From Candidatus Fermentithermobacillaceae bacterium (GTDB taxonomy: Bacteria; Bacillota; Sulfobacillia; Fermentithermobacillales; Fermentithermobacillaceae): DNA of 37,324 nucleotides. The notes beneath the pieces were generated by a model, which saw nothing but the letters and a program-made list of their open reading frames with translations, was not told the DNA's origin and did not search any database. The translations under genes were made by a program, and so were the position numbers. The stretch lies in NCBI GenBank assembly GCA_012842685.1, contig DUSI01000025.1, positions 1 through 37,324 on the forward strand, given 5' to 3'. Shown here piece after piece: positions 1,390 through 21,267 of this stretch (positions within the stretch are counted from its first letter, which is position 1; the number at the start of each line of letters is the position of its first letter).

Positions 1390-2811
1390 TCACCTCTCGG
1401 CCGCTACCAGGCCAGCCCTTCCTTCCAGCGACCTTACGAGGACTATCGGGGTCTGCTGGTCTTGGTTTCCGGCAGGGTTGTCGGCCATGGCGAGCTCGAG
1501 GGACTTATGGTCCACGCCATCTGAGTATCCGACGGCCCATGCGATCCCCAAGTCGTTTGCGTCCACTATGGCGGCACCTACCCGGCCCCCCAGCGCTTTC
1601 GCGATCCGGTTGGATAGGAGGTGCGGGTCTTTTGCCCCCAGCATCACATAGTAATCGTAGGGCGGGAGCGACCCGAGGATGTCATCTATCTGGGCAACCT
1701 GCGGCCCCGCGACGACGTAGAACCAGCCGTCTTTCCTCAGCAGCTTCCCGATTCCACCCGCGACGATGGCCGCCAGGATCCTGAGAGACCCTACTTCTTC
1801 GAGGGCGGTTTGGGCAGAGAGGGCGTTTGCCAGGGGGGCGGACGAAGTGAACGCTCCTACCGGATGCCTCGACGCGACGAGACTGGCGGTGAGCCTCGCC
1901 AGCCGGCTGATGGGAACCGTCCCTTCCATGAGCATGCGTCCTTCCATGATGGCCGCAACGCACGAAGAAAACGCAACTACGTCGCCGGACCTTATTCTCC
2001 CCTCCACGTACTGCTTGACGGTCTCAACCGGGTCGTCGGCTTCGGTGAGGAGTTTGGTCTTTATGGGGACTTTTTCGTACCCGCCCAAGTTGGGCAAAGG
2101 CTTTTTCCTCGGAGGTATGGGCGGCGGTTCCCCGAACCCCATTTTGCGCCAAGCTTCCCTCAGGTGGACGTCTCTCACTTTGGCTTTGCATCCGGTCTCG
2201 AGGACCTCTCTGGCCCTCTCCCTGTTCCCTCTCTTTAGGTGCAGCTCGGCGAGCAATATGAACTCGTCGTGGTGGAAGTTGGTGGACTTAAGGGACAAGA
2301 AACGCTCGAGGCTCTCGAGCAGTGCGTCTTCGTCCCCACGTTCCTTGTGGATCTGGGTCACTCTCTTCAGGAGCACCGCCAAGGGATAATGGTCCGGGAG
2401 CATGGCGGTGCAAAGGGGATCCGCCTGGCGGTATATCTCCAGCGCCCTCTCCGGGTTATTGGGATCGGAGAAGAAGCGGACGATATCGCCGTAGAGGACC
2501 CTAATCCACGCATTCTCCGGATATCGCTCCGCAAGTTCGGCTGCTACCTTCTCCGCTTCGGAAAACTCTCGTTTCCTCATGAGCACGTGGATGTAGTCTC
2601 TCCCGGCGCGGGGAGAACGGGACTTCTCCCACCGCCCGCGCGAGAGTTCCATGGCCTTGTCTACTTCGCCGGCAGAAAGGAGCCCCCACACTGCCCTGTG
2701 GACGGGATAGTCGGGATCTTCCGGAGCCGCGTACCTCGTGAAGATGGAGTCTGAAAGCCCCTTCATGCTGAGTATGTCAAACAGCCATCCGAGGAGAACC
2801 ATGAAACCCAT
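1390..2811 (-). CDS. TPR-repeat protein fused to a CofE-like (F420-0:gamma-glutamyl ligase fold) domain
   Basis: 473 residues. Residues 1-15 are hydrophobic (possible membrane anchor). Residues about 36-225 are helical repeats of TPR character (EVDKAMELSRGRW, REFSEAEKVAAELAERYPEN, NPERALEIYRQA, GNRERAREVLETG). After a Pro-rich linker (229-240), residues 248-461 resemble the F420 ligase (CofE) fold as seen in bacterial homologues: KTKLLTEADDPVETV, SGDVVAFSS, GWFYVVAG, PPYDYYVMLGAKDP, AIVDANDLG (415-422) and DNPAGNQDQQTP. CofE adds glutamate to coenzyme F420, but no other F420 genes are here, so the substrate is unknown. The start has no good ribosome site; the ATG codons at residues 4 and 16 are alternatives. 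It lies downstream of an M14 peptidase on the same strand, 181 bases away. Domain assignment is by motif recognition only. Confidence 0.75.
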   Translation of the reverse strand: MGFMVLLGWLFDILSMKGLSDSIFTRYAAPEDPDYPVHRAVWGLLSAGEVDKAMELSRGRWEKSRSPRAGRDYIHVLMRKREFSEAEKVAAELAERYPENAWIRVLYGDIVRFFSDPNNPERALEIYRQADPLCTAMLPDHYPLAVLLKRVTQIHKERGDEDALLESLERFLSLKSTNFHHDEFILLAELHLKRGNRERAREVLETGCKAKVRDVHLREAWRKMGFGEPPPIPPRKKPLPNLGGYEKVPIKTKLLTEADDPVETVKQYVEGRIRSGDVVAFSSCVAAIMEGRMLMEGTVPISRLARLTASLVASRHPVGAFTSSAPLANALSAQTALEEVGSLRILAAIVAGGIGKLLRKDGWFYVVAGPQVAQIDDILGSLPPYDYYVMLGAKDPHLLSNRIAKALGGRVGAAIVDANDLGIAWAVGYSDGVDHKSLELAMADNPAGNQDQQTPIVLVRSLEGRAGLVAAER

Positions 2812-2992: not shown

Positions 2993-4654
2993 TCAGCATT
3001 GTTGTTCCTCGGGGTACTCCTTCCTGACCGTCCCGCCCCTCTGACTCCTGTATTCCACGGCGAGCGTTACGTCGGCGCCGGGGTCCACCTTGACCATCCA
3101 AGCGAAACGGGCCGCCGACTTGGGAGGATTACCCCTCCCTCCTCCGCTCACGTATCCCTCGAGGAAACCTGCTTCGACTCTGGCTTTGCCGAGCACGGTC
3201 ACGCCCGGCCCGGGGAGGAGAACCGCCACGTCCTCCTTGCATGCGCCAAGCTCCTTGGCTTTGTTTGTAATGCAAGTCGGCAGGTAGCCGAAGTTCTCAA
3301 CCACGGCGGTAACCTTCTTGACAGAGCCGTCTATGTCCTCAACTTTCAGGGAAGTTATATGCAGTTCGGGAAGAGACGCCGCGTGCTTCATGATCCACAA
3401 CGCGTTCTTATGGCACTCCTGCTTTAGAAGGAACGGAGGAGGATTCTGCACGCAGAACTTGGGATCCCATCCGCCGATCTCGACGAGACCGAGCTGCGGG
3501 TGCTCAAAGGGCGTCCAGGGCCTAAAGCCTTTCCCTGCAAGCTCCCTGTCGTTCCACTCCAGGAGCTTCAGGTTCTGCTGTTCCCGCCTTTCCGGGTCGG
3601 TCGTCTTCTGCCATTCCATGAGGTCTACCCCGGCCCGTTCGTAGCGGTTCCAGAGCTCGGTTGTGTACGCGATTATCCCTCTGTGCTCGTAAGCCCATTC
3701 CGTAAGCGTAGCCCTGTTTGGGGATTTCACGTCGGGATAGCCGCACACGCGCGTGCCTTCGCAGGCGATCTCCCGCGTAGCCTTAAGGTCCTGCGGATCC
3801 ATCTTGTCCTCGGGGTACTGGCACGGGTTCCTGTAGAAGAAACCGCCCGAGGTATGCAGTGCCTGGATCCCCCCGATGTTGGGATGCTTCACGATAAACT
3901 CCATGATCGTCCGCGCCTCGGGCTCGCTTCCGGGGAAATCACCACCGCCCGGAACCTTGGTATCCCAGTTGGAAGGGAAGTTCCTGTTGAGATCCAGGCC
4001 GTAGCGGGGCTTCTGAATCTCTATGGGCTCGCCCTCGTAGTCCTTGATATAGCCTTCCGGGTAGATGCGGTAGAACGGCCCTTTTCGCTCTCCTGGCCTG
4101 CGGGGAACCATGAGCCTCGGGTCTTTATCGGAGACCTTCCATTCTCCCCTTCCGTCGTCCCTTACTCTCATCTGAAGGATCATGCCGTCTCCGTCCACAT
4201 CATCCCTGTGGAGCCCCGGGAGGTCGTCCACCTCTTCGTCGGGCCACACCCGGACGCTGCTCCTAAGAAGGGCCGGAGTAGTGAGGTACAGCTCGGCTCC
4301 GTCAGGATTTACCCTCGGAAGCACGTAGAAGGTCTTCGTATCCAAGAGGTAAGTGACTTCTTCGTCTTTGCCGTAATTGTCTACCAGGTAATCGATTAGG
4401 TACAGCGCCACCATGCTGCCCGTGACTTCACCTGCATGGATGTTGCCGTCTACGTAGAGCGCGGGTTTATGTGAGGCTGAGCCGGTTTTTCTGTTGGTTA
4501 GCGTGACTGCCCAGATATCCCTTCCTTCGTAACTCTTCCCCGCCGACTCCAAGTCGACCAGATCGGGATATGCTTCGGCGGTCTTCTTTAAGTAATCGGC
4601 GATCTCCGAGTACGTGAGGTACTTATCGAATGTGATCTCAACCTTCGACGACAT
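2993..4654 (-). CDS. M14-family zinc carboxypeptidase, paralogue 1
   Basis: 553 residues. A zinc carboxypeptidase removes C-terminal residues from peptides. Zinc ligands are visible as H73-AG-E76 and H267 (ALHTSGG); N223-R224 (DLNRNFP) matches the substrate-carboxylate pair of carboxypeptidase A, and E333 (YTTELW) fits the catalytic glutamate. A segment between the HxxE and NR motifs carries DVDGDG at 152-157, like a calcium-binding DxDxDG loop. Residues from about 430 on form an extra C-terminal domain, likely beta. No signal peptide is seen, so it is probably cytoplasmic. The ATG at 4654 is chosen over an in-frame start 12 codons upstream because GAGGGGTGA lies 5 bases before it and the N-terminus then matches paralogue 2 (ITFDKY). 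The gene is divergent from the ferritin-like gene. Confidence 0.9.
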   Translation of the reverse strand: MSSKVEITFDKYLTYSEIADYLKKTAEAYPDLVDLESAGKSYEGRDIWAVTLTNRKTGSASHKPALYVDGNIHAGEVTGSMVALYLIDYLVDNYGKDEEVTYLLDTKTFYVLPRVNPDGAELYLTTPALLRSSVRVWPDEEVDDLPGLHRDDVDGDGMILQMRVRDDGRGEWKVSDKDPRLMVPRRPGERKGPFYRIYPEGYIKDYEGEPIEIQKPRYGLDLNRNFPSNWDTKVPGGGDFPGSEPEARTIMEFIVKHPNIGGIQALHTSGGFFYRNPCQYPEDKMDPQDLKATREIACEGTRVCGYPDVKSPNRATLTEWAYEHRGIIAYTTELWNRYERAGVDLMEWQKTTDPERREQQNLKLLEWNDRELAGKGFRPWTPFEHPQLGLVEIGGWDPKFCVQNPPPFLLKQECHKNALWIMKHAASLPELHITSLKVEDIDGSVKKVTAVVENFGYLPTCITNKAKELGACKEDVAVLLPGPGVTVLGKARVEAGFLEGYVSGGGRGNPPKSAARFAWMVKVDPGADVTLAVEYRSQRGGTVRKEYPEEQQC

Positions 4655-4857
4655 GCCAGTCACCCCTCGCAATTCCGGATAATCCAGCACTTCGTCACGG
4701 CATGCAAGGTATCCTTCGGCGGTCGAAGAGATCCGTCTAAAGGATAAGGAGCCGGCAGCTTGTCACAGATCTTGCACGATTGGACATACTCTTCCAGCGT
4801 ACGTTGATCTAGGCTTAAGTTGGAGATGGAGAAAAGATCCAAACGGAGGGACCTGTA

Positions 4858-8506: not shown

Positions 8507-10165
8507 CTAGCCGGTTGTGAGCTCAGCCTGAGCCTTGCCGGCCCTCGGCGTATGGGCCAGGACGGTGAGCTTTGTCCCTTTCTCGGCGCGCACGACCCAG
8601 GTGATCTTCTTTTTCGTATCTCCTCCGCCGGACCTGCCGCCCAGGTGGCCGATCTCCTGGACTTCTTTACCGCCCGCCACTTCGCCGCCGCACAGGGTAA
8701 GCTTCACAGGCTTCGCCTGCCTCACCTTCAGGGCCTGGTAGGTTACATGGGTGGGCAGGTAGCCGTCATTCTTCACGACGGCTTCCACTTTGTAGAGGCC
8801 GTCTCCCAGGGGTTCGGCCACGAATTTCTCGATGACCAGGTGGGGCGTCACTGCCGCCCGGGTGAGCGTAAACTGGGCATTCCTCTTGCACTCGTCTTCG
8901 AGGAGACAAACCGGCGGGTTCTGCCTCCCCATCTTGGGCTCCCAGCCTCCGATCTCGACTTCGCCCAGCTGGGGGTGGTTAAAAGGCCGCCAATCGTGGA
9001 AGAGTGCCCCGCCCATCTCTTCGTCGTTCCACTTTAGGAGCTTCAGGGCATCCTCTTCCCTGTCTTTTTCCGATAGGTTCCTCATCTCAGTAAGGGAGCG
9101 TTTCCTGATCCCGGCGCGTCCCTGCATATCCCAGAGCTCGGTCTCGAAGGCCAGGATACCCAGAGTCTCATAGAACCACTCCAGGTCGCTCCCTACCTCG
9201 GGTTTCTCGGGATCCCACGTGAAGCTCTCAAACACCGACTTTAGAGGATACCCCGTGAGCTCTTCTCCGATCTCTCCCAGGGCGCGGTAGATGGCCAGGT
9301 CCCTGCCGTCCATATTCCTGTCCGGTTTGTCGCAAAGGGGCCTGAGGAGCACCCCGCCGCTGGTGTGGTAAGCCATGGTGCTCACAATGTTCGGGCGGGA
9401 AAGGACGAAATCGCCGATGGCCTTCATCTCGGGCTCGGAGAACGGGTAGTCTCCAGATCCAGGCTGCCTCACGGGGAGGGCCCAGTTGGTTGGATATTGT
9501 CTGTTGAAATCCAGCCTGTGCTTGCCCGGGGCGTAGCCGACGGGCACATCGGGATCGTAATCTCTCACGAGGCCTTCGGTATAGACGTCGTAGTAGACCT
9601 CACCGGGCGCACCGAGGTCGTCCGGGCGCCTCCTGACCATTATCCTGGGGTCCTTCTTGGACACCCTCCATGCTCCGTCGGGGTTCTTGACGCGCATCTG
9701 AAGTATCTTCCCGTCGCCGTCTACGTCCTCCGGGTAGAGCCCGGGCTTATCGTCCGTCTCTTCGGGCCACGGCCTCAGGCTCGACCGGAGCATGTATGGC
9801 GTCGAGAGGTAGTACTCAGAGCCGTCTACCGCTATCCGTGGGATGAAGTAGAACACCCTGGTATCCACCAGATGCGTGATGCGCGGGTCTTTTCCGTAGC
9901 CTTCGAGGAGCATCTTTATGGTATATACGACGACCTCGGCTCCGGTCACTTCACCGGCGTGGGTATTGGCATCGGTGTAAATCCCTGGTTTGTCGGAACC
10001 CGGTCCCGTCTTCCTGTTCGTGATCTCGACCATCAGGATCTCCCGGCCCTGATAGGACTTACCGATGCACTCTATCCGGCAAAGTTCGGGATACTGCAAA
10101 ACGCATTCTTGCAGGAATGCGCGTATTTCATCGTATGTGTGGTACTTGTCGAAGGTTATGTTCAA
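8507..10165 (-). CDS. M14-family zinc carboxypeptidase, paralogue 2
   Basis: 552 residues. Zinc ligands H69-AG-E72 and H267 (YHTSGG), substrate-binding N221-R222 (DFNRQYP) and a catalytic-glutamate motif FETELWD are all present, so it should be an active carboxypeptidase. The DVDGDG loop at 147-152 and the C-terminal extra domain are shared with the other two copies. The start is uncertain: an ATG at 10171 lies only two bases from GGGAGG, too close, while the TTG six bases further in has ideal 8-base spacing and yields LNITFDKY; I chose the TTG. It sits 54 bases upstream of the M42 gene and 49 bases downstream of paralogue 3, so the three are probably one transcript. Confidence 0.9.
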   Translation of the reverse strand: MNITFDKYHTYDEIRAFLQECVLQYPELCRIECIGKSYQGREILMVEITNRKTGPGSDKPGIYTDANTHAGEVTGAEVVVYTIKMLLEGYGKDPRITHLVDTRVFYFIPRIAVDGSEYYLSTPYMLRSSLRPWPEETDDKPGLYPEDVDGDGKILQMRVKNPDGAWRVSKKDPRIMVRRRPDDLGAPGEVYYDVYTEGLVRDYDPDVPVGYAPGKHRLDFNRQYPTNWALPVRQPGSGDYPFSEPEMKAIGDFVLSRPNIVSTMAYHTSGGVLLRPLCDKPDRNMDGRDLAIYRALGEIGEELTGYPLKSVFESFTWDPEKPEVGSDLEWFYETLGILAFETELWDMQGRAGIRKRSLTEMRNLSEKDREEDALKLLKWNDEEMGGALFHDWRPFNHPQLGEVEIGGWEPKMGRQNPPVCLLEDECKRNAQFTLTRAAVTPHLVIEKFVAEPLGDGLYKVEAVVKNDGYLPTHVTYQALKVRQAKPVKLTLCGGEVAGGKEVQEIGHLGGRSGGGDTKKKITWVVRAEKGTKLTVLAHTPRAGKAQAELTTG

Positions 10166-10214
10166 GCTCATTACCTCCCGCTCGGCCCCGTACTGAGGAC
10201 CTCACATGCCTTTT

Positions 10215-11888
10215 CTACTCGAGCACTACTTCGGCGGTGGCAGTGCCGGCGCGCTCAGAAGACACCGTCACCGTGAGGCGCGAACCTTTTTCGGCCCTCA
10301 CAACCCACTCGACTTCCTTGCGGTTGCCCTCGCCGCTCCCGGCCATCCACGCGCCGCGGCCTCCCCTGCTCCCCGAGAGGCCCGGAAGGTGGCCGATCTC
10401 GGTCTTGGGCTTACCGGTTATGACCTGGATCTCATCGCCACAGGAGATCTCCACCGTGACGGGCTTGGCCCTCCCGACCTGCACGGCCTGCTGAGAACCG
10501 CTCGTGGGCATGTAGCTCTTGTTGGTGACCACCACCGTCACCTTGTAGAGGCCATCTGCAAGCTTCTCGACTCCTGTCTTGTCTATGTGCACCTCCGGCA
10601 GGCAAGCCGCGTGGTAGAGCGTGAACATGCAGTTCTTGTGGCACTCGCCCTCGAGGAACTGGGGCGGCGGGTTGGTCAGGACGAACTTGGACTTCCAGCC
10701 GCCGATCTCCACCTCACCCAGCTGCGGGTGGTTAAACTTCCTCCACCTCTCGAAACCCTTTCCTGCAAGTTCCCTGTCATTCCACTTGAGGAGGTTGAGC
10801 TGGGCCTCCTCTGCGCTCCGGCCGCTCCGGTCGAAAAGCTTGTTTCCCGCCCGGACCGAAGCGTCCCAGAGTTCGGTCGAGAAAGTAATTATCCCCAGGT
10901 GCTCATACAGCCAGTCCATGAAGACCCCCTTGAGGGGGTTGGATTTATCGAACGTGTAATCTTCGTAGGTTGAAACGTGGGGATACCCCGTGAGCTCGGT
11001 GCCCTTCTGCCCTATGGTCTTGTAAAGGGCCACGTCAGCGGGCGGGAGCTTGGTGTCGGGCTTCGTGCAGGAGGGCCGGAGTATCGCCCCCATGGTGGTG
11101 TGGTACGACATAGCCCCCGCTATGTTGGGATGGCTGAGGATGAAATTCGCGACGTTCCGCGTCTCGGGCTCTGACAGAGGATACGGGCCAGCGCCCCGCT
11201 GGACGTTGTCGGGTTCCCAGAAGGCCGGGTAGTTGCGGTTGAGGTCAAGTCCCCACTTGGGCTGGGCCATTTTGATCTCGCCGCCATCCCAGTTCTTTAT
11301 GATCCCTTCAGGATAGACCCTGTAGAAAGGCCCTTCAGTGTCCCAAGGCTCCCTCCGCACCATGAGGCGGTCGTCTTTGGAAGACACCTTGAAATCGCCA
11401 TCGGGGTCTAGGACTCTCATCTGCAGGATCCACCCGTCGCCGTCTACATCTTCCGGGTTGAGGCCGTCGTCGCTTTCCCTCGGCGGGTACTCCCTGGTGC
11501 TGGAACGAAGCGTATGGGGAGTATGCAGGAAGACCTCGGCGCCATCCGCCGATATCCTGGGCAGTATGTACCACGTCCTGTCATCCACCAGGCGTGTCAC
11601 GAACGGGTCTTTCCCGTAGTTCGAGAGGAGGTACCAGATCGTGTAGAGGCAGACTGCCGATCCGGTAACTTCTCCCGCGTGGTGGTTGCCGTCTATGTAC
11701 ATGCCGGGTTTCTTGTCCGGGGAACCCTTGGAGAAATTGGTGATCTCCACCGCCCACATATCCCGGCCCTCGTAGGTTTTCCCTATCGAGTACATTTTCG
11801 CCAGGTTCTCATTTTCCTTGACCATTTCCCTGAGAGTCTCTGTAAGCTCGGCGTAATCCAAGTAACGGGTAAAATCAGGTTTTTTCAC
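10215..11888 (-). CDS. M14-family zinc carboxypeptidase, paralogue 3
   Basis: 557 residues. Active-site residues are H70-AG-E73, N217-R218 (DLNRNYP), H263 (SYHTTMG) and E339 (FSTELWD). The DVDGDG loop is at 147-152. The His motif reads HTTMG instead of HTSGG in the other two, which may alter the substrate pocket. The C-terminal domain is longer and has a Gly-rich stretch (SGSRGGRGAW). GTG start with GAGGAGG 10 bases upstream. Neighbours are cobO on the 5' side (72 bases) and paralogue 2 on the 3' side. No signal peptide, so intracellular peptide breakdown is the likely role. Confidence 0.9.
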   Translation of the reverse strand: MKKPDFTRYLDYAELTETLREMVKENENLAKMYSIGKTYEGRDMWAVEITNFSKGSPDKKPGMYIDGNHHAGEVTGSAVCLYTIWYLLSNYGKDPFVTRLVDDRTWYILPRISADGAEVFLHTPHTLRSSTREYPPRESDDGLNPEDVDGDGWILQMRVLDPDGDFKVSSKDDRLMVRREPWDTEGPFYRVYPEGIIKNWDGGEIKMAQPKWGLDLNRNYPAFWEPDNVQRGAGPYPLSEPETRNVANFILSHPNIAGAMSYHTTMGAILRPSCTKPDTKLPPADVALYKTIGQKGTELTGYPHVSTYEDYTFDKSNPLKGVFMDWLYEHLGIITFSTELWDASVRAGNKLFDRSGRSAEEAQLNLLKWNDRELAGKGFERWRKFNHPQLGEVEIGGWKSKFVLTNPPPQFLEGECHKNCMFTLYHAACLPEVHIDKTGVEKLADGLYKVTVVVTNKSYMPTSGSQQAVQVGRAKPVTVEISCGDEIQVITGKPKTEIGHLPGLSGSRGGRGAWMAGSGEGNRKEVEWVVRAEKGSRLTVTVSSERAGTATAEVVLE

Positions 11889-18430: not shown

Positions 18431-18485
18431 AAATATCTCTCCCCGCTCAAAGCTTTCCCGGAGGCTTTCTTGCGTATATGCTGCG

Positions 18486-18514
18486 TCGAAGCGTATCTAC
18501 CATGCCAGTATAGC
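18486..18514 (+). promoter_or_regulatory. Weak candidate promoter for tldD-tldE
   Basis: TCGAAG (18486-18491), 17 bases, then TATAGC (18509-18514), on the plus strand in the 165-base divergent gap. The -35 matches poorly; spacing and position are right. Confidence 0.27.
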
Positions 18515-18515
18515 A
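18507..18515 (-). promoter_or_regulatory. Extended -10 promoter candidate for the subtilase-like gene
   Basis: On the minus strand TGCTATACT is an extended -10 element (TGn plus TATACT); no good -35 is present, as often for this class. It gives a leader of about 70 bases. It overlaps the candidate -10 of the divergent tldD promoter. Confidence 0.4.
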
Positions 18516-18595
18516 GAAGCGGTAGGTATGCGGCATGCACCCGTAGAATTGGTGCCGGACGGCTGTGGAAACAGGAAGGGAGGAAAGAAGGCGCC

Positions 18596-19981
18596 ATGAC
18601 ATCCATGAAGGATCTCTTACGGCGGGCGCTCAAGCGTTCTACCGCCGAGTACTGCGAGATCCGGGTCGAAGAGACGGAAGAGGTCAGGATCCAGTTCCGG
18701 GGAAAAGACATAGACCAGGTCTCCGAGACCATAGCGGTGGGCGGAAATGTCCGGGCGCTTCATAGCGGGGGCTGGGGGTTCGTCTCCTTCACCCGCCTAG
18801 ATGACCTCGAGCGCAAAGTCGACGAGGCGTGCGCTCAAGCCCGGATCCTTGGGGAGAGGCTTAAGAAGGAGATAAAGCTCTACCCCGTGGACCCCGTGGA
18901 AGACGAAGTCCCGGGGACGTTTGTGACGCCCGCGTTCAAGGTTCCGCTGGCCGAGAAAGTGGGGCTTCTCACAAGGTACAATGAGCTGGTCCTCGCGCAG
19001 CCCGAGATCACGTCTTCGTTCATCAGGTACTTCGACAGGCATACCCACCTCTACTTCGCAAGCTCCGAAGGAACGTACATCTACCAAGAAAAGATGGACT
19101 TGGGCGGCCACATCGCGGCGATAGCCACCAAAGGGAACCTCACGACCCAGGAGTCGGTGAGGTTCGGGTCGAGCACAAACTACGATGTAGCGCTGGGGCG
19201 GGAGGATGAGATTATAGGCGCCGCAAAGGCCGCACGGGACTTGCTCTACGCCCCCGTCATAAAGGCCGACGAGTACACCGTTATCCTGGCTCCGGACATG
19301 GCGGGACTGTTCGTCCACGAAGCTTTCGGCCACCTGTCGGAAGCAGATTCCCTCGATGAAAACGAACGCCTGAAGGAACTGCTCAAGATAGGGACCGAGT
19401 ATGGCCCCAACGACCTCGACATCTTCGACAGCGGCATAGAAGGGGGAAACCGGGGCGATGCCAAGTACGACGACGAAGGCGTGCCCATGCAGAAAACTTA
19501 CCTCATCAAGGGTGGAGTCGTAGTCGGACACCTTCACAACAGGGAGAGCGCCTGGAAAATGGGAGAAAAGCCCACCGGAAACGCCCGCGCCATAAACTAC
19601 AGGTTCCCCCCGATCGTCCGCATGAGGACGACGTGTATAGCGCCTGGTAAACACACGCTGGAAGAGATGCTTAAAGATATCCGCCTTGGAGTATACGTGG
19701 CGGGTGGCTACGGCGGCGAGACAAACGGCGAGATGTTCACTTTCACCGCTTCCAGGTGCAACATGATAAGAAACGGCTCCATCGCAGAGCCGGTCAGAGA
19801 TGTGACCCTCACAGGCAACGTTTTCACGACCCTCAGGAACATCGACATGATAGGGAACGACTTCAGCATCAAGAACACCGCGGGAGGGTGCGGTAAAGGC
19901 GGCCAAAGCCCGCTCCCCACTGCCGACGGAGCTCCTCACATCAGGGTGCAGAGGGTAGTCGTGGGAGGTGAGAAGAAATGA
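18596..19981 (+). CDS. tldD: TldD-type metalloprotease subunit
   Basis: 461 residues. TldD is the zinc-bearing subunit of the TldD/TldE protease, which breaks down small or unfolded peptides and in E. coli matures microcin B17 and degrades the antitoxin CcdA. The zinc motif HExxxH is at H241-EAFG-H246 (FVHEAFGHLSEAD), and the later SRCNMIRNGSIAEPV block carries the expected metal-binding cysteine. The beta-barrel N-terminal domain (1-200) is complete. The ATG at 18596 is chosen because a GGGAGGAAAGAAGG purine stretch ends four bases before it; the longer in-frame extension has no ribosome site. The stop codon overlaps the tldE start (ATGA), so the pair is translationally coupled. Confidence 0.95.
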   Translation: MTSMKDLLRRALKRSTAEYCEIRVEETEEVRIQFRGKDIDQVSETIAVGGNVRALHSGGWGFVSFTRLDDLERKVDEACAQARILGERLKKEIKLYPVDPVEDEVPGTFVTPAFKVPLAEKVGLLTRYNELVLAQPEITSSFIRYFDRHTHLYFASSEGTYIYQEKMDLGGHIAAIATKGNLTTQESVRFGSSTNYDVALGREDEIIGAAKAARDLLYAPVIKADEYTVILAPDMAGLFVHEAFGHLSEADSLDENERLKELLKIGTEYGPNDLDIFDSGIEGGNRGDAKYDDEGVPMQKTYLIKGGVVVGHLHNRESAWKMGEKPTGNARAINYRFPPIVRMRTTCIAPGKHTLEEMLKDIRLGVYVAGGYGGETNGEMFTFTASRCNMIRNGSIAEPVRDVTLTGNVFTTLRNIDMIGNDFSIKNTAGGCGKGGQSPLPTADGAPHIRVQRVVVGGEKK

Positions 19982-21267
19982 TGGGCGAAGCCCTGAAATA
20001 CGCCCGGGAAGCCGGAGCGAGCGCCACCTTGAACTTCCGGGAATCAAAGAAGGTTGAGATCAATTTCGAGTTCAACCGCCTAAAGGGCATACAAAACACG
20101 GAAAGCCTGCACATTACGGCTCAGGCGATACGGAACGGCAGGCTCGGAATCGCCACCTCAAGCCGCGCAGGCGGAGAAAAAGAGGTCATGGAGAGGGCGA
20201 TACGCTTGTCAGAGTATGGCGCTCCCGTGAGTTACTCGTTCCCCGAGCCGGAACCCTCTTCGCGGCCCGATGTCTACTCGGAAGAGGTAGCCTCTCTGGA
20301 CCTCATGGAGATGCTTCGGGTCGGCGAAGACCTGACGGCGTTCCTAAGGTCTCTCCACCCCGACGTAAACGGCTCGGTAACGGTGGCCAAGACGGTCTTC
20401 CGGGAAGGGATCGCCAACACGAACGGCCTGGATGCTTCGTGGGACAGGACGGTCCTCAGCGTCGTCGCCATCGCCAGCCTAGTGGATGGGCAGAACCTCG
20501 TGGACCTCTGGGATTACCACGTCTCAACCAGAGTGGACTGGGATATCGAAGCCCTAAAAGAGGGGATCCGGTCCCGCTTCGACCTTGCCAGGAAGAACGT
20601 GCCGGTAGAAACGGACGCGTACCCGGTTCTGTTTACCCCGGATGCTTTCCAAGCGCTCATCTCCCCCATCCTGGCCTGCCTGGACGGGAGGGCCGTGACT
20701 CTCGGCGTAAGTCCGTTCTCCAGACGTCTGGAGGAGCAGCTTTTCTCCCCCCTCCTCTCGGTCATCGAGGACGGGCTTCTGGCGGGTGGCCTTGGGAGCC
20801 GCATGTATGACGCCCAGGGAGTGCGGGCGAGGCGCAATCTCCTCATTGAAAAAGGCGTCCTGCGCGAATACCTCCTTGACCTCGAGACGGCCCACAAGCT
20901 TGGCAGGAAACCCATCGGAACGGGCGGCGTCGGCGGCATAGATCCCGCCAACATCATCGTGCCCGGCGGGACCGACTCCAAAGACAGCCTGCTTTCGGGC
21001 ATGAAGAGGGGAATAGTCATAGAGAACACGATGGGGGCATGGGCCGGGAACCCCTATTCAGGCCAGGTGAGCGGCAATATAGCCATGGGCTTCCTCGTGG
21101 AAGACGGAAAGCTCGCAGGCCGCGTCAAAGACTGCATGTTCTCGGTGAACGTCTTCACGCACCTAAGGGACCATCTGGTCGCTCTGAGCCGGGAGACCAA
21201 GAACGTCGGGCCAACGCTGCCTTATGCGCTGGTAGATAACGTCTCCATAGCAGCCAAGCGAACGTAG
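19978..21267 (+). CDS. tldE: TldE/PmbA-type protease partner subunit
   Basis: 429 residues. This is the non-zinc homologue that forms the heterodimer with TldD. It has no HExxxH where TldD has one; the corresponding stretch reads VLFTPDAFQALISPIL. Shared family blocks include RLKGIQNTES near the N-terminus, SRMYDAQGVRARR, KPIGTGGVGGIDPANIIVPGG and VIENTMGAWAGNPYSGQVSGN. Translation starts inside the tldD stop (ATGA overlap), preceded by GGGAGGTGAGAAGAA; a second ATG one codon on is equally possible. A strong terminator follows, closing a two-gene operon. Confidence 0.95.
   Translation: MMGEALKYAREAGASATLNFRESKKVEINFEFNRLKGIQNTESLHITAQAIRNGRLGIATSSRAGGEKEVMERAIRLSEYGAPVSYSFPEPEPSSRPDVYSEEVASLDLMEMLRVGEDLTAFLRSLHPDVNGSVTVAKTVFREGIANTNGLDASWDRTVLSVVAIASLVDGQNLVDLWDYHVSTRVDWDIEALKEGIRSRFDLARKNVPVETDAYPVLFTPDAFQALISPILACLDGRAVTLGVSPFSRRLEEQLFSPLLSVIEDGLLAGGLGSRMYDAQGVRARRNLLIEKGVLREYLLDLETAHKLGRKPIGTGGVGGIDPANIIVPGGTDSKDSLLSGMKRGIVIENTMGAWAGNPYSGQVSGNIAMGFLVEDGKLAGRVKDCMFSVNVFTHLRDHLVALSRETKNVGPTLPYALVDNVSIAAKRT

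Follow-up and report, generated by a model that had tools for sequence, protein, structure and literature searches.

The window analysed here, the whole stretch of 37,324 nucleotides, carries on its minus strand a gene whose product joins a TPR superhelix to a domain resembling the F420 ligase CofE. The question raised by this locus is which reaction such a domain would carry out in its host, and what the TPR part would add to it.

Domain layout and fold of the fusion protein

The earlier note had described the protein as TPR repeats fused to a CofE-like domain, and this was borne out by Pfam, by profile-profile alignment (hhalign) and by an AlphaFold model, which place a TPR superhelix at residues 3-223 and a CofE fold from residue 243/244 to 473 (Table 1). 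With Pfam, TPRs were detected in the first half (PF13428, E 9e-11, and further TPR models), no Mur-ligase domain was found, and PF01996 (F420_ligase) matched at residues 250-309 below threshold (E 0.007), with a score of 16-19 bits versus a gathering cut-off of 25; the paralogue encoded in the same genome passes, at 39.3 bits. Tandem TPR helix pairs arranged in a superhelix, as expected of TPR proteins, were found by Pfam, in the AlphaFold model and in its structure matches. Confidence is high along the whole model, which was computed from 49 sequences (pLDDT 92.5, pTM 0.91).

Table 1. Position of the fusion gene and of its domains and motifs in the window
Feature	Positions	Strand	Evidence or remark
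TPR-CofE-like fusion gene	1390..2811	-	473 aa; ATG start; stop 1390-1392; frame uninterrupted
Residues 1-224, TPR superhelix (helices H3-13 to H215-223)	2140..2811	-	Pfam TPR_14 9e-11; AlphaFold secondary structure; VIA matches include TPR superhelices
Residues 225-243, Pro-rich linker (PPPIPPRKKPLPNL)	2083..2139	-	Sequence; P230, P233, R235, P240 conserved in A2
Residues 244-473, CofE-fold amide-ligase-like domain	1393..2082	-	hhalign E 3.4e-15; Z 13.9 to 2phn; Foldseek E 6.9e-5
EGR motif, residues 290-292	1936..1944	-	R292 aligned with CofE R49; R in 97% of domain family
D376-D377 (QIDD), invariant or near-invariant acidic pair	1681..1686	-	Near CofE D109; insertion makes exact equivalence uncertain
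DAND, residues 417-420	1552..1563	-	D417 aligned with CofE D150, N419 with N152; D420 in place of G153; D417 and D420 invariant
NPAGN motif, residues 445-449	1465..1479	-	Signature of the non-F420 branch at the position of CofE MGEGGDG

Residues 243-472 of the model superpose on the CofE of A. fulgidus (2phn) with Z 13.9 and an rmsd of 3.6 Å over 189 aligned residues, and on 7uld with Z 13.8; identity is 24% over the former and 24-25% over the pair. The profile search of the C-terminal half, which had been proposed as a check, did find the F420-ligase family: hhalign against CofE-like sequences gave E 3.4e-15, and the profile of the domain family found the solved CofE structures (E 7e-5). A PDB search with the single sequence gave no useful match; only the family profile succeeded. 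The domain thus has the CofE fold of the F420_ligase superfamily.

In the alignment to A. fulgidus CofE, D417 falls on D150, N419 on N152, R292 on R49, D277 on D34 and G369 on G107. Across Bacillota, Caldisericia and Cyanobacteria, D417, D420, N445, P446, G448 and D376 vary hardly or not at all. D109 and D150 were reportedly identified as metal ligands in the 2007 CofE structure. A loss of all GTP- and metal-binding residues, which would have refuted the note, did not occur: the metal-site Asp is retained. The mechanism of CofE involves two Mn ions, GTP, formation of an acyl phosphate, then attack by an amine (PMC10861534). Based on the fold and on the aligned D150, N152, R49, D34 and G107 positions, the window protein is best read as a putative NTP-dependent CofE-fold amide ligase, which probably proceeds through an acyl phosphate. 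The three motifs AIVDANDLG, DNPAGNQ and FYVVAG had been taken as typical of CofE. They turned out to be signatures of a distinct, non-F420 branch of the family, their counterparts in A. fulgidus CofE being ITDTNGR, MGEGGDGIP and VCVNAG.

The fusion gene is flanked by genes for an M14 peptidase and GcvT. Three M14 zinc carboxypeptidases (2993-4690, 8507-10171 and 10215-11888, all on the minus strand) and a nearby M42 aminopeptidase, TIGR03106-like although below the cut-off of that model, suggest a peptide-degradation cluster; the TIGR03106 resemblance also brought an osmoprotectant (NAGGN) pathway into consideration. The window also holds a TldD/PmbA-like ORF pair on the plus strand (18470-21267), and in locus L045 a comparable pair (8611-11324) immediately follows the TPR-CofE gene.

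The fusion protein is not an F420 ligase

That no F420 gene lies nearby was confirmed, and the observation now extends to the whole genome, which is 97.5% complete. CofC was not found in it, and its matches to CofH lie far below the cut-off. One match to PF01933 was considered as CofD and rejected, as its locus, between RapZ- and WhiA-like genes, reads as YvcK of a rapZ-yvcK-whiA cluster. The F420 pathway (CofC, CofD, CofG/H), for which a search for cofC, cofD and fbiC had been suggested, is therefore absent from the host genome. The equivalog model TIGR01916 (CofE/FbiB) gave no row for the fusion protein at E<=0.1, and only 23.0 bits for the paralogue of the same genome (cut-off 180.65); a single genome among the 199 sampled in the phylum passes it. 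A second, distinct CofE-like set, present in many Bacillota as open frames of about 390-550 aa, matches TIGR01916 in separated pieces.

The protein itself points the same way. In CofE, F420 is contacted by G153-C155, by R234 of the partner chain and by a long domain-swapped hairpin (PMC10861534). In the alignment, D420-L421-G422 (DLG) stands in place of G153-R154-C155, in the non-F420 branch about 28 residues are missing from the F420-contact segment that separates D150 from the C-terminal Gly motif, and the conserved part stops before any equivalent of R234, so that the C-terminal R234 region of CofE is missing. In sum, the protein shares with CofE (A. fulgidus 2PHN/7ULD, and also the N-terminal domain of FbiB) a fold over about 190 residues and the five aligned positions, but differs from it by an identity of only about 24% over aligned residues, by these lost parts, by the DxND and NPxGN signatures, by the TPR fusion, and by a host without F420 genes. 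We conclude, on both the genome content and the F420-contact parts, that the TPR-CofE protein is not an F420 ligase.

The fusion clade and the wider non-F420 branch

Orthologues of the fusion were found in every sampled relative, in both families of the order, at 42-87% identity, and also in Caldisericia, a 'Dictyoglomota' MAG and further MAGs. The architecture is not confined to the host genome but marks a clade that has been conserved in two phyla or more. A chance association or an assembly artefact was considered and rejected, because separate genomes, namely all sampled relatives of the family and order, have kept the fusion. When the domain was placed in a maximum-likelihood tree, the 23 rows fused to TPRs fell on one side of a branch (support 96/100), with an Amidase_3-linked group and a group of c21-linked, Negativicute and cyanobacterial rows as neighbours: the fusion has a single-clade origin. 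It is the only CofE-like match in a Caldisericia genome (G260, reached from L043) and in the genome of L046 (G262). Neither a decarboxylase nor an adjacent Amidase_3 accompanies the TPR clade. At 7 of the 8 order-level loci outside the nearest relatives of the window, a PBP2-type transpeptidase lies directly upstream and a sigma factor downstream; little weight can be given to this adjacency, since synteny is conserved over a larger region that includes it. In no other branch of the CofE-like family was a linkage to TPRs found. The fold is known, and the architecture, a TPR and CofE-like fusion, is new.

The PF01996-type proteins of other non-F420 bacteria belong to the same branch, their domains being about 31-43% identical to that of the fusion protein, but have other partners: Amidase_3-CofE and asparagine synthase-CofE architectures and, in Cyanobacteria, a form anchored in the membrane. 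Many standalone copies adjoin or are fused with Amidase_3, often with a third gene for an Orn/Lys/Arg or pyruvoyl arginine decarboxylase, a context from which the TPR clade departs. The standalone paralogue of the host genome (contig C42, L112:7841-11102) lies in such a triad, in the order Orn/Lys/Arg decarboxylase, cytosolic Amidase_3 and CofE-like gene, with overlapping ends. Besides this locus, all 7 other paralogue loci examined in Fermentithermobacillales contain the triad, as do further class members, with a PLP enzyme in two and a pyruvoyl enzyme in three. In L121-L123, the order is pyruvoyl decarboxylase, a membrane gene (c21) and the CofE-like gene. By inspection, no signal peptide was seen in the Amidase_3 proteins of the branch. 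Where the motif could be read, the H-E-H zinc residues are kept with a single exception. The Amidase_3 partner at L184:4047-4958, unlike the others inspected, has an altered zinc motif (DPACGG, second His missing).

The GatD-MurT-MurJ genes lie 2-10 kb from the Amidase_3-CofE pair in all five loci of one family. In the cyanobacterial form (L099:7437-8630), the CofE-like domain is fused to an N-terminal anchor, made up of a transmembrane helix and a beta-sandwich to which c21 is homologous (hhalign E 1e-9); in Bacillota, c21, which has no Pfam match, is a separate gene upstream of the CofE-like gene (L111:7456-7992, L121:974-1498). Arg-rich residues after the transmembrane helix suggest that the cyanobacterial domain would face the cytosol. 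The cyanobacterial cluster often continues to GNAT, RuvX, DUF3727, YqeG and MltG. Glutamine amidotransferase, asparagine synthase and CofE-like domains are found in one ORF at L189:5152-8049 (965 aa) and L190:3078-5876, followed by an RseB-like protein in both and an ECF sigma factor in L189; open frames of this asparagine synthase-CofE type, of 890-1000 aa, also occur in several families.

The CofE-like domain is present in 80 of the 199 genomes of the phylum sample, 74 of them strong (about 37%), and in 75 of 97 genomes of the cyanobacterial class, the other 22 giving no match. It is found, almost always once, in 119 of 120 genomes of a class inferred to be Negativicutes, as this class was reached via a Selenomonadaceae locus and contains an Acidaminococcus genome (G257). 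In the 199 genomes of the phylum, 23 carry both the domain and MurT_C (PF08353), and 51 and 41 respectively only one of them (OR 0.92, p 0.88). The two are statistically independent, and therefore give no sign of a shared or a mutually exclusive role. MurT_C is absent from the host genome.

An activity attaching polyamines to the peptidoglycan of Negativicutes has been known since the 1980s, and the enzyme activity was reportedly described by Kamio and co-workers. Cadaverine or putrescine is carried by the D-Glu of Negativicutes peptidoglycan (PMC10628300; PMC12826042). In cyanelles, modification by N-acetylputrescine takes place at a membrane-bound stage, and better with lipid II (PMC3266927). 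Our search of largely open-access literature retrieved neither a named diamine transferase gene nor CofE-like proteins outside F420. To our knowledge, polyamine-modified peptidoglycan has not been reported from free-living cyanobacteria.

Proposed function and its alternatives

Our leading proposal, put forward tentatively, is that the window protein is a TPR-scaffolded CofE-fold amide ligase joining a glutamate-type carboxylate of a peptidoglycan precursor to a small amine, the TPR part serving for docking. Two divalent metals and an NTP would likely make an acyl phosphate from the carboxylate, which the amine would then attack; this chemistry is the best supported of the proposed steps. Acceptor and donor are less sure. 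Most likely, the acceptor would be a peptidoglycan-precursor glutamate on the cytosolic side of the membrane, and the donor a small amine of polyamine type or similar, to judge from the triad of decarboxylase, Amidase_3 and CofE-like genes in the sister branches. The TPR part would replace the membrane anchor, amidase or asparagine synthase partner and dock the ligase to an envelope-synthesis protein. The family context behind this reading (Amidase_3, Orn/Lys/Arg or pyruvoyl arginine decarboxylases, asparagine synthase, MurT/GatD/MurJ, PBP) assigns the substrate by guilt by association, and we infer that a cell-wall acceptor with a small amine as donor fits it better than any named alternative. 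Against the proposal speak the TPR clade itself, whose genes have neither a decarboxylase nor an adjacent Amidase_3 beside them, and the 22 cyanobacterial-class genomes without a match. The broader generalisation is doubtful, namely that the non-F420 branch would be the ligase attaching polyamines or related amines to peptidoglycan-precursor glutamates in Negativicutes and relatives, with the TPR fusion as a variant docked on the wall machinery in Fermentithermobacillales and Caldisericia.

The proposed reaction resembles that of the MurT/GatD lipid II amidation complex in that both would use an NTP to form an amide at the alpha-carboxylate of D-Glu in a lipid-linked precursor; MurT/GatD differs in having an unrelated Mur-ligase fold and in taking ammonia from glutamine. 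As for the polyamination of Negativicutes peptidoglycan, it is distribution and context that link it to the CofE-like gene, which in the loci read lies beside its membrane-anchored partner gene.

The same triad, with its overlapping genes, may be read otherwise. By analogy with glutathionylspermidine synthetase/amidase, a bifunctional enzyme, the family might conjugate glutamate, or else a small peptide, with agmatine or a polyamine, a reaction that the cytosolic Amidase_3 would reverse, and the TPR form would then be a paralogue acting on a related small substrate. An Amidase_3 without signal peptide, with its zinc residues mostly kept, fits this, but the membrane anchoring, the asparagine synthase fusions and the MurT/GatD/MurJ and PBP2 neighbours are left unexplained, and no decarboxylase lies near the TPR-clade genes; we regard it as unlikely. 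The TPR part invites another reading, in which it binds a protein that the CofE-like part glutamylates or amidates. TPRs are protein-docking modules, and among the fold matches of the model is OGT, an enzyme with TPRs whose substrates are proteins. However, the other branches of the family are never linked to TPRs and are mostly tied to cell-wall or polyamine genes, and the substrates of CofE are small molecules (PMC10861534), which makes protein modification quite improbable.

Is the domain an enzyme at all? The sub-threshold PF01996 match, and the L184 Amidase_3 partner without full zinc residues, would be consistent with a degenerate CofE fold kept as a scaffold or sensor. We give this little credence, as the acidic pair and the DxND and NPxGN motifs show little or no variation between Bacillota and Cyanobacteria, which is unexpected in a dead enzyme. 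Finally, homology to CofE could speak for glutamylation of F420, or of another known cofactor such as folate, through an undetected pathway. This is hardly credible given the missing CofC, the CofH matches below cut-off, the CofD-family gene that is YvcK, and a protein with a shortened F420-contact segment and no R234 region (contacts as given in PMC10861534).

The suggestion made from the sequence, that the protein glutamylates another substrate, thus stands in so far as F420 is ruled out. Neither glutamate as the added amine nor a protein substrate chosen by the TPR part gained support, the family context pointing rather to polyamine-type amines and to cell-wall precursors.

Whatever the substrate, the non-F420 branch is widespread in Bacillota and Cyanobacteria, and matches to F420-ligase models mislead, because the host and nearly all sampled genomes of the phylum lack a canonical CofE by the equivalog test. 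If the cell-wall reading is true, it would put a definite gene, present once in almost every sampled genome of the class inferred to be Negativicutes, behind the polyamine-attaching activity, and one ligase would have been coupled to four partners: an amidase, an asparagine synthase, a membrane anchor and a TPR scaffold. With its neighbouring polyamine and cell-wall genes, the non-F420 CofE-like family is a candidate for the enzyme by which small amines are coupled to the bacterial wall.
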